This document shows positions 46,632 through 55,060 of a stretch of DNA of 64,000 bases, one piece after another. The first letter of the stretch is position 1. Every line of letters begins with the position of its first letter. The DNA is taken from contig BPKI01000001.1 in assembly GCA_026005055.1 (NCBI GenBank), forward strand, positions 1,116,001-1,180,000, read 5' to 3'. The DNA is from Lysobacterales bacterium (lineage in GTDB: Bacteria > Pseudomonadota > Gammaproteobacteria > Xanthomonadales > BPKI01). The translations under genes and the position numbers were made by a program. Below the pieces are notes generated by a model. The model ran no database searches and was not told where the DNA came from. It saw nothing but the letters and a program-made list of their open reading frames with translations.

Positions 46632-49600
46632 ATGAAACTCGGAATCGGCTTGAAGCTGTTCCTCATTGCCCTGCTGTCCGTCGCGGCCACCGGCCAGGTT
46701 TACGCCCAGGCCACTGCCGCGAATGCGGCCGGGCGCGTGAGCTATGCCGACGGCCCCGGCGTGGCCGGCGTCACGGTCGAGCTGGTGCACGTTCCTTCGG
46801 GCACCCGCAGCCGCACCACCACCGACGCCGAAGGCCGCTGGTCGGCGCGCGGCTTGCGCGTGGGCGGCCCTTACACCGTGTCGGTGAGCGGCGAGGGCAT
46901 TCAGACCACGGCGCAGGAGAACATCTTCCTCCTGCTCGGTGAGACCACGACCATCAACTTCACCGTCGAGCGCAGCGCCGATCTCGGTCGGGTGGTGGTG
47001 ACCGGGGCGGCGATCTCCGAAGTCTTCGACCCGATGAAGATGGGCGCGGGCACCAACGTCACCCGCCAGCAGATCGAGCAGCTGCCCTCGATCAGCCGCA
47101 ACATCCAGGACTACGTTCGACTCGATCCCCGCATCACCCAGGTCGATCGCGAGCGCGGCGAAATCTCGGCGGGCGGTCAGAACACGCGCTTCAACAACAT
47201 CCGCATCGACGGCGTGACCACCAACGACGGCTTCGGGCTCGAGGCCAACAACCTGCCGACCGAGCGCCAGCCGATTTCGATCGACTCGATCGAGGAGATC
47301 AACATCTCGCTCGCCAACTTCGACACCGCGCTCGCCGGTTACACCGGTGCCTCGATCGATGCGGTCACCAAGTCCGGTACCAACGAGTTCCAGGGCAGCG
47401 GCTACTACATCTACCGCGACAACTCGATGATCGCGAAACTCGATGGTCGCCGCTTCACGGGCTTCGAGGACGAGACCACCTATGGGGCCACGATCAGCGG
47501 TCCGATTCTGCGCGACACCTTGTTCTTCTTCCTCGCCTACGAGAAGTTCGAGCGTGCGGCGCAGGGCCCGGTGTTCGGTCCGCGCGGCTCGAACGCCAGC
47601 CAGATCGTCCAGGGCATCACCGTCGAGCAGCTGCAGCAGATCCAAGAAATCGCCCGCACGGTTTGGGGCTTCGACGCGGGCAGTTTCACCCCGCCGAAGA
47701 CCCTCGATTTCACGATCGAGGACATCCTCGCCAAGCTCGACTGGAACATCGCGGAGAACCACCGCGCCAGCCTGCGGTACAACCGCACCGAGCAGACCGA
47801 GCCCTTCCTGCGCCAGTTCGGCCCCCGCTCGCTCTCGCTGTCCTCGTTCTGGCACGAGAACGACAAGAAGTTCGAGTCGCTGGTGCTTCAGCTCTTCTCC
47901 GACTGGACCGACACCATCTCCACGGAGTTCAAGGCCAGCCGCTCGAAGCAGGAGTCTTTCTGGAACAACTTCTCGCGGCTGCCGCAGATCCGCATCTGCT
48001 TGAACAGCCCGACCAACACCTGCTCGGGCGCGGACACGGTCTTCCTCGGCACCGAGCAGTTCCGCCACATCAACGAGCTCGAAGTGGAGAAGACCAACGT
48101 CTTCGGCGCGCTCAACTGGTTCCTCGGCGCGCACGAGGTGAAGCTCGGCTTCGACTGGCAAGAAGAGGACATCTACAACCTCTTCGGCCGCGACCAGTTC
48201 GGTGTTTATGACTTCTACGGAATCGAGGCCTTCCGCAACGGTACGCCGGGCTTCTTCTCGGTGCGCTATCCGATCGGTGGCGGCATCGACCGCATCGCCG
48301 CCTTGTGGAAGCTGCGCAACCTCGGCCTGTTCCTGCAGGACACTTGGATGGTCAGCCCGAACCTCACCCTCATGGGCGGCGTGCGGGTGGACATCATCGA
48401 CATCCCTGAGAAGCCGGTGTACAACCGCACCGCTTCGGAGCGTTTCGGTCTGCGCAACGATTACACCATCGATGGCGAGAAGGTCTGGCAGCCGCGCCTC
48501 GGCTTCAACTACAGCTTCGATACCGATCGCAGGCTGCAGTTGCGCGGCGGCGTGGGCCTTTTCCAGGGTGCGGCAGCCAACGTCTGGCTCTCGAACCCCT
48601 TCACCAACAACGGTGTGACGCTGGGCGTCTTCACCTCCACCAACCCGGCGCGTGATGGCATCCGCTTCAGCCCGAATCCGGATCAGCAGCCGGGTCCGCG
48701 GCCGACGGGTGGTTTCGGGCCGGTGGATTTCATCGAGCCGGGCGTCAAGCAGCCGACGGTGTGGAAGCTCAACCTGGCGGTCGATCACGAGCTGCCCTTC
48801 TGGGGCCTGATCGGCTCGGCGGAGCTTCTGCTCACCGACGTCAAGAACGGCATTTACTACGACAAGCCGAATCTCGCGGTGCGAGGCATCCTGCCCGACG
48901 GCCGTCCCCACTCCTGGACGACGGTGGCTCGCGGTCAGTGGACTGGCGCGGCGGCCCAGCGTCCTGCCTTGGATACGCGCTTCGACCCGGATGTGACCAT
49001 CCTGCGCCGGACCAACAAGGGCAAGGGCCAGCAGCTCACGCTCTCGTTGCAGAAGCCGCAGGACGAGAACTGGTTCTGGAGCGTGGCCTACACCTACACC
49101 TACGCGACCGAGGTGAATCCGCTCACCTCCTCGCAGGCGGCCTCGAACTGGAACAACGCCATCCGTCGTTTCACCAACGAGAACATCTCGGAGCGCTCGA
49201 TCTACGCCATTCGCGATCGCTTCAACGCTTCGCTCGGCTACCAGGAGTTCTTCTTCACCGACCTCAAGACCTCGGTGGGCTTGTTCTACGAAGGTCATAG
49301 CGGGCGTCCCTTCACCTACGCCTTCGTCAACGACGTCAACGGCGACGGCCGCGTCAACGATCCGCTCTACGTACCGAGCGGACCGGGCGATGTGATCTTC
49401 ACTGGTGGCACGGCGATGGAGCAGGCCTTCTTCGACTACCTGCGCCGCACGCCGGGGCTTGCGCGCTGGGCGGGTCAAATCGCGGGGGTCAACACCGAGC
49501 GCTCGCCTTGGGTGCACCGCATCGATCTTCGCATCTCGCAGGAGCTTCCGGGCTTCTGGAAGGGTAAGAGCGAGCTGTGGGTTGACGTCATCAACTTCGG

Positions 49601-49805
49601 CAACTTGCTCAACAAGCGCTGGGGCGTGATCGAGGAAGTGCCCTTCCCGTACAACTTCGGCGTGGTGCGTTTCGCCGGCGTGGATCCGGCCACCGGGCGG
49701 TATGTGTATGACTTCCGTCCGGATGACATCCGCGATCTCACCCGCCGCGACAACCGCGGGGAATCGCGCTGGGCTATCCAAGTCGGGTTCCGCTACAAGT
49801 TCTGA
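46632..49805 (+). CDS. Oar-like TonB-dependent outer-membrane receptor
   Basis: A 1057-residue outer-membrane protein. It has a signal peptide (residues 1-25, VYA), a carboxypeptidase-regulatory-like beta-sandwich domain (about 30-115, TDAEGRWSARGLRVGGPYTV), a plug domain (about 118-260, with NIRIDGVTTNDGFG and GYTGASIDAVTKSGTNEFQG), and a long barrel ending in the C-terminal aromatic GFRYKF. This layout is that of Oar-type TonB-dependent transporters, which are abundant in Xanthomonadales-like and myxobacterial genomes. The cargo is unknown. It is monocistronic and ends in a strong terminator. Confidence 0.93.
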   Translation: MKLGIGLKLFLIALLSVAATGQVYAQATAANAAGRVSYADGPGVAGVTVELVHVPSGTRSRTTTDAEGRWSARGLRVGGPYTVSVSGEGIQTTAQENIFLLLGETTTINFTVERSADLGRVVVTGAAISEVFDPMKMGAGTNVTRQQIEQLPSISRNIQDYVRLDPRITQVDRERGEISAGGQNTRFNNIRIDGVTTNDGFGLEANNLPTERQPISIDSIEEINISLANFDTALAGYTGASIDAVTKSGTNEFQGSGYYIYRDNSMIAKLDGRRFTGFEDETTYGATISGPILRDTLFFFLAYEKFERAAQGPVFGPRGSNASQIVQGITVEQLQQIQEIARTVWGFDAGSFTPPKTLDFTIEDILAKLDWNIAENHRASLRYNRTEQTEPFLRQFGPRSLSLSSFWHENDKKFESLVLQLFSDWTDTISTEFKASRSKQESFWNNFSRLPQIRICLNSPTNTCSGADTVFLGTEQFRHINELEVEKTNVFGALNWFLGAHEVKLGFDWQEEDIYNLFGRDQFGVYDFYGIEAFRNGTPGFFSVRYPIGGGIDRIAALWKLRNLGLFLQDTWMVSPNLTLMGGVRVDIIDIPEKPVYNRTASERFGLRNDYTIDGEKVWQPRLGFNYSFDTDRRLQLRGGVGLFQGAAANVWLSNPFTNNGVTLGVFTSTNPARDGIRFSPNPDQQPGPRPTGGFGPVDFIEPGVKQPTVWKLNLAVDHELPFWGLIGSAELLLTDVKNGIYYDKPNLAVRGILPDGRPHSWTTVARGQWTGAAAQRPALDTRFDPDVTILRRTNKGKGQQLTLSLQKPQDENWFWSVAYTYTYATEVNPLTSSQAASNWNNAIRRFTNENISERSIYAIRDRFNASLGYQEFFFTDLKTSVGLFYEGHSGRPFTYAFVNDVNGDGRVNDPLYVPSGPGDVIFTGGTAMEQAFFDYLRRTPGLARWAGQIAGVNTERSPWVHRIDLRISQELPGFWKGKSELWVDVINFGNLLNKRWGVIEEVPFPYNFGVVRFAGVDPATGRYVYDFRPDDIRDLTRRDNRGESRWAIQVGFRYKF

Positions 49806-52528: not shown

Positions 52529-53326
52529 ATGCGTCCCTATCACGAGCTGATCGAGCGCATCCTCGCCGCCGGCGAGCGGCGCGAGGACCGCACCGGTGTC
52601 GGCACTCTCTCGATCTTCGGCCACCAGATGCGCTTCGACCTCGGCGAGGGTTTCCCCTTGCTCACCACCAAGAAGCTGCACGTCAAATCCATCGTGCACG
52701 AGCTTCTCTGGTTCCTACGTGGCGAAACCAACGTCCGTTCACTCCAAGCCGAAGGCGTTTCCATCTGGAACGAATGGGCCGACCCCGAGGGTGAACTCGG
52801 CCCCATCTACGGCAAACAGTGGCGAAGCTGGCAAGGCTGCGATGGGCGGGTGCACGACCAAATCGCATGGGTCGAGGCCGAGATTCGCCGAAACCCCTCC
52901 TCAAGACGCCTGTTGGTCTCGGCCTGGAACGTGGGCGAGCTCGATCGGATGGCGCTTCCACCCTGCCACGTCCTCTTCCAGTTCTACGTCCACCGAGACG
53001 GAAGACTCTCCTGCCAGCTCTATCAGCGTTCAGCCGACGTCTTCCTCGGCGTGCCCTTCAACATCGCCTCCTACGCCCTGCTCACCTCGATGCTCGCGCA
53101 CACCACCGGGCTCAAACCGGGCCTCTTCATCCACACCCTGGGCGATGCTCACCTCTACCTCAACCACCTCGAGCAGGCGCGAATGCTGCTCTCGCGCGAA
53201 CCCTACCCGCCGCCGACCCTGCGCCTCAACCCCGACGTCCGCTCGATCCTCGATTTCCGCTACGAGGACATCCTCATCGAGAACTACCGCTGCCATCCCC
53301 CCATCCGCGCGGAGGTCGCGGTCTGA
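52529..53326 (+). CDS. thyA: Thymidylate synthase ThyA
   Basis: A 265-residue enzyme that methylates dUMP using methylenetetrahydrofolate. The catalytic Cys146 is in [13 protein letters not shown], the folate and dUMP sites are seen in [20 protein letters not shown], and the C-terminal IRAEVAV closes the site. The length equals that of E. coli ThyA. Dihydrofolate reductase, which recycles its product, is encoded 1.2 kb downstream on the same strand. Confidence 0.98.
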
Positions 53327-54116
53327 GACCGGCGAGCGGCTCCGGCAAGGGGGCCGCCTCCGCCTCTCGTGAGCGTTCGGGTGTTCGAGAAGGGGTTGCT
53401 CGCGCCCCGGGAAAGCGTCGCGATGCCGTTTCCTCGAGGCATGAGCGAAGGCCGACTCGCAGGTCTTCGCAGAAGCTCGCCCCCTGGCCACCGAGCAGCG
53501 CCTGGCCGCGGGAGTCACGCAGTTGGCTCCGCGGCGAAGTCCGCTCCCGAGGCCTGAATTGGAGGGGCGTGGCTTCGCCCCGCCGCGCCGGGGCAGGGGA
53601 GCAGCCTGGACCGTGGCCTTCGAGAGATCGGCCCTGGCGGGGGTGGACGCGGTTCGGGAAAGCGGCTCGGAAAGGGCGGAGGGGGACTGCGCTTTCGATC
53701 GCGGTGCCTCCTCCGCGTCCTTCAGGAGTTGGTCGATGACGCACGTCCACCTGCCGCTCAAACAGCTTCGGACCTCGGCACCGCCCGCGTGAGCGGGGTG
53801 ATGAGTCTCCGAGGAGTCGTCGAGCTCTCCGCACGACAGATCCGAGCGTGAGCGATGCTCCGAGGCGCGAGGATTCCCGCGGGTCCGGTGGGGATCGTCC
53901 CCGCGCGGCTTTCCTCCCTCCCCCTGGCCGAGGGGCGTTCTATGCCGGATCAGGCTCTCGGTGTCCCCGCGGCAGCCCGGCAAGGACCTGCCGCCGCACC
54001 GCGCTGCCTCCACCGATCGCCGGTGCCGAGGCGGATGCCTTTGCCGTATCGTTTCTGGCGATGATGGTCGGGCTTCACCGACGGCTATCCGAACCGAGCG
54101 AGGAGGGAGGCAGGGC
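53327..54116. other. Gap of 790 bp without a recognisable gene
   Basis: This is the longest gap in the window. It has a 6-bp stem with a six-base loop (GGGGCG/CGCCCC, 53564-53581) and several short open readings of about 60-90 codons with arginine- and proline-rich composition, none resembling a known protein. A strong AGGAGGGAGG ribosome site at its right end belongs to the next gene. Confidence 0.55.
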
Positions 54117-54575
54117 ATGATCCGCATGGTCCTTTCGCTGGTTTTGGGCGTAGGCCTTCCCAGCTTGGCTTCGGCTTGCATCTTCGACACCGACTGCGAG
54201 ATCGGAAGTCGCTGTCTCAAGCCGCGCGGTGCGCTCCACGGCGTCTGCGCCGGGGGTCTGGAGCCGGGCCGTCCGGCTTGGTCGGAAGTCGAGCCCGATC
54301 CGCTCGAGCTCGATCCGGGGCATGGCGTGGGCTGCCGCTTCGATACGGACTGCGGCCCGGGGCTTCGCTGCGCGAAGGAGCCGGCGTCAGCGCGCGGCGT
54401 ATGCATGTCGCTCGACTTCGAGCGGCGTTTGATCCGCGATTCGGCCGGTTGGAGCCGCGAGCCTCACGAAGAGCGCCGTACACGGCCGTGCCTCTCGCGC
54501 TTCGATTGCGGTTTCGGTGAGCTCTGTCTCAGCCGCCGTGGCTTCGGACCGGGGCGATGCATGAAGAGCCGCTGA
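54117..54575 (+). CDS. Small exported protein with three exact cysteine repeats
   Basis: A 152-residue protein with a signal peptide (residues 1-20, LSLVLGVGLPSLASA). The mature part has exactly twelve cysteines, in three sets with identical spacing C-x5-C-x5-C-x10-C: 21/27/33/44, 73/79/85/96 and 125/131/137/148. The sets are exactly 52 residues apart. Each reads roughly CxFDTDCxxGxRC then GVC. Cys21 is the first mature residue; ASAC is a poor lipobox, so lipidation is uncertain. The pattern points to small disulfide-stabilised modules. No family was recognised. The last 19 bp overlap folA, which suggests co-expression. Confidence 0.8.
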   Translation: MIRMVLSLVLGVGLPSLASACIFDTDCEIGSRCLKPRGALHGVCAGGLEPGRPAWSEVEPDPLELDPGHGVGCRFDTDCGPGLRCAKEPASARGVCMSLDFERRLIRDSAGWSREPHEERRTRPCLSRFDCGFGELCLSRRGFGPGRCMKSR

Positions 54576-55060
54576 GCATCGCGCTGATCGCCGCCCACGA
54601 CCGCAGGCGGGCGATCGGAAAAGCCGGGCGTCTGCCTTGGCATCTGCCGGCCGATCTTCGCCGCTTCAAGGCGCTCACCGTGGGCCATCCAGTGGTGATG
54701 GGCCGTCGCACCTTCGAATCCATCGGACGGGCCTTGCCCGGGCGAAGGAATCTCGTCCTCTCGCGCTCCTCCTTCCCGCTACCCGATGAGGTCGAGCGAG
54801 TCGCTTCGCCAGAGGAGGCTTGCGAACGGGTGCGCAGGGGCACGTTGTGGGTGATCGGCGGAGAACAGACCTACCGGCTCTTCCTGCCCCTCGCGGATCG
54901 GCTGGAGATCACCGAGGTGGAGACGGAGACGGAGGGTGCCGATGCGTGGTTTCCAGAGATCGCCGAGCCGCAGTGGAAACTGCTCGCGTGCGAGGCGCGG
55001 CCGGCCGATGCCGAGAACCCCCACCCGATGCGTTTCCTGAGCTTGCGCCGTCGCGGCTAG
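54557..55060 (+). CDS. folA: Dihydrofolate reductase FolA
   Basis: A 167-residue enzyme that reduces dihydrofolate with NADPH. The N-terminal SIALIAAHDRRRAIGKAGRL, the catalytic Asp33 in LPADLRRFKAL, the NADPH site MGRRTFESIGRALPGRRN and VIGGEQTYRLFL are all intact. The ATG lies 19 bp inside the preceding gene. It supports the thyA reaction upstream. It overlaps the convergent apaH by four bases. Confidence 0.97.
   Translation: MHEEPLSIALIAAHDRRRAIGKAGRLPWHLPADLRRFKALTVGHPVVMGRRTFESIGRALPGRRNLVLSRSSFPLPDEVERVASPEEACERVRRGTLWVIGGEQTYRLFLPLADRLEITEVETETEGADAWFPEIAEPQWKLLACEARPADAENPHPMRFLSLRRRG

Follow-up and report, generated by a model that had tools for sequence, protein, structure and literature searches.

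A twelve-cysteine exported protein encoded between thyA and folA and its unnamed gammaproteobacterial family of two-module relatives

In hirudin, residues 16–37 form the pattern C-x5-C-x5-C-x8-C, with the cysteines paired 16–28 and 22–37. The N-subdomain of Dkk4 CRD1 has the arrangement C41-x5-C47-x5-C53-x9-C63, with disulfides C41–C53 and C47–C63 (C1–C3 and C2–C4) and with Asp44 and Asp46 conserved, and the Dkk and colipase domains have been proposed to descend, by doubling, from a one-subdomain ancestor (PMC6078440). Bacterial exported proteins that are small and rich in disulfides are poorly catalogued, as they are short and score below profile cut-offs. Here, we describe a protein of this kind encoded in a 64 kb stretch of DNA (the window) from a Lysobacterales bacterium, whose genome is a single contig of 2.44 Mb and the sole genome seen of its taxonomic family. 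The gene and its parts are as follows.

54101–54110, forward strand: Shine-Dalgarno-like AGGAGGGAGG, 6 nt 5' of the ATG (from sequence)
54117–54575, forward strand: coding sequence of the exported 12-cysteine protein, 152 aa (from the ORF translation and homologues)
54117–54176, forward strand: signal peptide, residues 1–20, MIRMVLSLVLGVGLPSLASA, likely cut by signal peptidase I at ASA↓C (from sequence and hydropathy)
54177–54248, forward strand: module M1, residues 21–44, CIFDTDCEIGSRCLKPRGALHGVC (from sequence and an AlphaFold pLDDT of ~87)
54249–54332, forward strand: spacer 1, 28 aa, predicted to be mostly disordered, alignable to the spacer of the relative L038
54333–54404, forward strand: module M2, residues 73–96, CRFDTDCGPGLRCAKEPASARGVC (from sequence and positional profiles)
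54405–54488, forward strand: spacer 2, 28 aa, with 1/28 identity to spacer 1
54489–54560, forward strand: module M3, residues 125–148, CLSRFDCGFGELCLSRRGFGPGRC, of M1 type and not in the two-module relatives

A spurious open reading frame was rejected on the basis of the strong Shine-Dalgarno sequence, the hydrophobic N-terminus ending LASA↓C, the coding-like GC3 and the independent homologues; the gene is genuine and in no curated family. The same N-terminus bears out the signal peptide and export proposed in the first-pass annotation, and the cut site is supported by comparison with relatives, which have ASA↓AC and AQA↓GC. Cysteines are found at positions 21/27/33/44, 73/79/85/96 and 125/131/137/148, with no other in the 152 residues, and the earlier description of twelve cysteines in three C-x5-C-x5-C-x10-C sets, 52 residues apart, is exact on the translation. 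Throughout the six frames of the 64 kb this pattern was matched just by these three sets, shuffled windows gave an average of 0.03 matches per window, and random placement of 12 cysteines reproduced the register in 0 of 200,000 cases. No second copy was found in a profile search of the window's own genome.

A search for homologues sharing the cysteine spacing, as suggested in the first-pass annotation, revealed a family with a two-module core, the modules lying 49–53 residues apart and once 59. It was found with a profile of five modules followed by a profile of eight two-module stretches; most of the weak matches to the five-module profile lacked the four-cysteine pattern, and the weak order-level matches L003, L004 and L006 were dropped on this ground. 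A typical member comprises about 100 residues, with a signal peptide, an M1 module (C-x5-C-x5-C-x10-12-C), a spacer and an M2 module (C-x5-C-x5-C-x9-11-C). Among the relatives, the first cysteines of M1 and M2 are 52, 52, 53, 49, 49, 51, 49, 53, 52, 59, 53, 53 and 53 residues apart; the distance is 52 in the window protein. The latter has the complete family core (signal peptide, M1-spacer-M2, spacing 52, and 46% identity to L038). A self-excluding profile built from six relatives gave 72 bits on window residues 21–98, spacer included, and 13.5 bits on M3, compared to an average of 2.4 and a maximum of 26.9 bits for 2000 decoys with the cysteine register kept and the remainder shuffled; the profile used to find the relatives contained the window modules, a mild circularity that is outweighed by the decoy margin. 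Unlike a protein ending after M2 or after whole pairs, the window protein continues into a third module of M1 type; this varies the family architecture, and the core match stands. Among the relatives, L041 has two whole M1-M2 pairs, and in L005 an M1-M2 pair is fused C-terminally to a Sel1/TPR-like protein. Judged by sequence, the window protein is thus a member of an unnamed, thinly scattered gammaproteobacterial two-module family.

At E ≤0.001, matches were obtained in 2 of 399 genomes from the order, in 8 of 369 from the class and in 2 of 379 in a phylum sample, each count including the window's own genome. This scattered occurrence suggests horizontal transfer or frequent loss. Two of the class matches contain stops, two in one case and one in the other; members broken by stop codons, apparently decaying copies, were seen at L089 (genome G344) and L088 (genome G224). 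In single-protein searches no relatives were found in plasmids, phages or viral contigs, and one Nannocystis locus had a single short repeat in common. The relative at L085 sits, by eye, among phage-like genes. The nearest relative of the window protein, in G191 (46% identity), is encoded 3' of a hemW-like gene. A 237-residue protein with no Pfam match is encoded downstream of the closest relative (L083, 8003–8716).

The first-pass annotation had read the exact register as a recent tandem duplication whose spacing is held by disulfide modules. The second part of this proposal, for modules whose disulfides are predicted, is counted as supported, and the first part is not borne out. A recent duplication of one unit within the gene would account for three sets in exact 52-residue register, but M1 and M2 are identical at 14/52 residues and, over the whole repeat, at 64/156 bases, the M1 and M3 cores share 38/72 bases, and the two spacers have 1/28 residues in common; residue identity is 10/28 for M1-M3 and 9/28 for M2-M3. 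Furthermore, distant relatives already carry the M1-M2 pair at equal spacing, and M1 and M2 match different positional profiles: M1 scored 53 bits on the M1 profile vs 36 on the M2 profile, M2 41 bits on the M2 profile vs 28 on the M1 profile, and M3 23 bits on the M1 profile vs 10 on the M2 profile, a positional split that is imperfect among the relatives, as the first module of L038 scores better on the M2 profile. The M1 and M2 of the window are each closer to their positional counterparts in relatives than to one another. A later event would be possible for the M2-M3 distance only, yet M3 is least like M2. Recent duplication is already refuted for M1-M2, and for the gene as such we give it hardly any credence. 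Since M1 and M2 fit their own positional profiles, M3 fits that of M1, and the relatives have the M1-M2 pair, these comparisons indicate that the M1-M2 register goes back to an old two-module protein, to which M3, a module of M1 type, was added.

No known family had been recognised for the protein in the first-pass annotation, and the database searches agree: all Pfam matches were below cut-off (ACI44 20.6 vs 27, Dickkopf_N 20.2 vs 25 and DX 20.3 vs 25 bits), every one of them a small animal cysteine module, and NCBIfam and PHROGs gave no match. Folding was performed with window sequences only, the whole protein being modelled by AlphaFold2 without relatives. A single module, the unit for which the first-pass annotation had proposed structure prediction, was folded with the window's own repeats and gave a predicted hairpin (pLDDT 87.8). 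In the whole protein, pLDDT was ~87 for M1 and M3, ~70 for M2 and 47–50 for the linkers; the predicted structure is one of hairpin modules and disordered linkers. Foldseek returned no significant match (the lowest E was 0.05 with the whole protein and 4.5 with the module), as expected for 28 residues. Of the four matches to the module, two were the Dkk4 N-terminal region (TM 0.59) and Dkk1 CRD2. For the whole model, a double-ICK toxin (E 0.05, prob 0.66) came first, with mamba intestinal toxin and Dkk1 also among the top three. These matches are consistent with a Dickkopf-type module, though no proof of one, and the Dickkopf N-subdomain is, weakly and in the predicted fold, the best structural relative of the module.

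With a double-ICK toxin heading the whole-model list and one relative located amid phage-like genes, the protein could be imagined as a small secreted antibacterial or toxin-like peptide of the cystine-knot type. This is very unlikely: the fold match is below significance, PHROGs gave no match, immunity and processing genes are both absent, and the mature protein is not cationic (21 K/R vs 20 D/E). A secreted inhibitor, e.g. of proteases, that blocks a host or competitor enzyme was also considered, as hirudin, the Ascaris carboxypeptidase inhibitor and WAP-type inhibitors are built on similar cysteine modules. The Ascaris inhibitor was the top PDB sequence match for a single module (E 0.003), hirudin matches the two-module profile weakly, and ACI44 is among the sub-threshold Pfam matches. 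However, the match is limited to a 15-residue C-x-x-D-x-D-C...C stretch, which leaves the inhibitory loop or tail uncovered and also matches Dickkopf and P2X, neither of which is an enzyme inhibitor, and we consider inhibition an unlikely function.

The genomic neighbourhood of the gene includes apaH and two folate genes.

52529–53326, forward strand: thyA, thymidylate synthase, a neighbour 790 nt upstream of the cysteine-protein gene
54557–55060, forward strand: folA, dihydrofolate reductase, a neighbour with its start codon within the 3' end of the cysteine-protein gene

The first-pass annotation had placed the gene between thyA and folA and named folA as an unexpected partner. The placement and the overlap with folA (19 nt, 54557–54575) hold, except that thyA does not abut the gene. 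The overlap suggests translational coupling and might point to a functional partnership with FolA or ThyA, i.e. a folate operon protein, but the cysteine protein is exported and FolA is cytoplasmic, none of the relatives examined lies beside folA, and the slot in relatives is empty or holds unrelated genes. Among the 30 best folA loci, the gene was present only at the window's own. In 20 relatives of the order with thyA visible near folA, the gap between them was ≤67 nt in 13, 173 nt in one, 638–665 nt in four and ~1 kb in two, the larger gaps holding unrelated genes, e.g. for a membrane protein of ~210 aa. A partnership in folate metabolism is therefore highly improbable; as relatives lack the gene at this place and the slot tolerates other inserts, folA is an incidental neighbour, although the two genes may be translationally coupled through their overlap.

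In one family of the order (L008, L012, L031 and L036), the slot encodes an integral membrane protein of 202–214 aa, which presumably resembles DUF2238; elsewhere it holds a Ppx-like gene (L018) or an opposite-strand membrane-protein gene (L032). The 790 nt between thyA and the cysteine-protein gene (53327–54116), where most relatives have ≤67 nt, are high in GC, and neither a convincing gene nor a convincing promoter, terminator or RNA family was evident there. Around the gene itself, RNA families and promoters were not above chance. Upstream of ppnN, 46632–49805 encodes a large outer-membrane protein that is, by eye, TonB-dependent and Oar-like.

A polysaccharide-export context in one clade provides the first functional hypothesis for the family. 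All members of this clade (7/7, from six genomes of one family and G923) lie within polysaccharide-export genes, with neighbours encoding Poly_export/SLBB, Wzz/GNVR, a Polysacc_synt flippase, a group 1 glycosyltransferase, GH5 or GH113, and a deacetylase; this context is Pfam-confirmed for the representatives in L086, L105, L106 and L108 and a by-eye resemblance in L103, L104 and L107. At these loci (L086, L103–L108), the two-module gene is a putative small accessory of the exopolysaccharide export cluster. It mostly stands next to an exported GH5-like enzyme, or near a GH113 enzyme. As genomic context, the link to polysaccharide is established for this clade only, and may not extend to the window protein, because the latter falls outside the clade, which has 99/99 support; any tie of the window protein to envelope polysaccharide would be putative.

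DsbA (CIHC), DsbB and two GspG genes are present in the window's own genome, so that the cell can draw on oxidation and perhaps also on type II secretion. On balance, we lean towards a Dsb-oxidised, Sec-exported, non-enzymatic and multivalent protein with a binding or structural role in the envelope or secretome, made of a two-module core and an extra M1-like module. Following Sec export and cleavage at ASA↓C, DsbA/DsbB would oxidise each module, pairing C1–C3 and C2–C4, and this pairing would cross-brace a tiny hairpin equivalent to a single subdomain, or half, of a Dickkopf/colipase-type domain. Three such rigid beads, joined by two flexible linkers of 28 residues each, would form a protease-resistant multivalent protein acting in the periplasm, at the cell surface or in the medium, where the beads would bind or stabilise something outside the cytoplasm without an enzymatic role. 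By analogy, the cysteine-rich repeats of a placozoan lysozyme offer a possible precedent for a stabilising role, and the authors of that study cite links of such repeats to prokaryote transfer (PMC12855814). Structure and export are well supported; disulfide pairing, cell location and the binding role are what we infer.

Alternatively, Cys21 could be lipidated and serve as an outer-membrane anchor, as LASAC is compatible with a loose lipobox, the signal of the relative L040 ends TVAGC, and L005, the Sel1/TPR-like fusion, has a lipoprotein-like start. Such a lipoprotein is quite unlikely, as position −3 is Ala instead of Leu/Val/Ile, Cys21 is in exact register with the internal Cys73 and Cys125, in L039 and L042 an A-x-A site lies one residue ahead of the first module cysteine, and lipidation would strand Cys33 unpaired. 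Beyond the favoured multivalent binding or structural role, the unnamed family might represent free-standing Dickkopf/colipase subdomains arranged as beads, serving exopolysaccharide assembly or envelope attachment, and hence the proposed one-subdomain ancestral state or an independent arrival there; we regard this as conceivable, if doubtful. In any case, starting from the window protein, a family can be defined whose two-module register is conserved and whose disulfide pattern is testable.

With Dickkopf_N (PF04706, colipase-type fold), the modules share the C-x5-C-x5-C-x9-C spacing of the N-subdomain, a short hairpin and the C-x-x-D-x-D-C motif, which is found in M1 and M2, M3 retaining the second Asp only. 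The Dickkopf domain, in contrast, consists of two subdomains with ten cysteines and five disulfides, whereas the window module is a free-standing four-cysteine subdomain, bacterial, borne on 28-residue linkers and below the PF04706 gathering score (20.2 vs 25 bits). Myxo_Cys_RPT (TIGR04201) is likewise a short bacterial cysteine repeat and weakly matches the relative L039 (17.8 vs a cut-off of 25), but its model spans 22 positions and the window protein has no match to it at E ≤5; the repeat of the Nannocystis locus differs by a shorter last loop. DX (PF01666), the EB module (PF01683), ACI44 (PF15270) and DUF7107 are animal secreted cysteine modules of similar spacing, and DX matches one relative at E 8.6e-8, whereas the window protein stays under the cut-offs of DX (20.3 vs 25) and ACI44 (20.6 vs 27). 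Hirudin shares the cysteine core, but forms a single domain with three disulfides and has an acidic inhibitory tail, which the window protein lacks. Free-standing subdomains in bacteria bear on the doubling proposal for Dickkopf and colipase (PMC6078440) as a likeness, not as established common descent. Compared with these systems, and with the duplication and folA-partner readings unsupported, what is new here is a variant within the known class of secreted cysteine modules.
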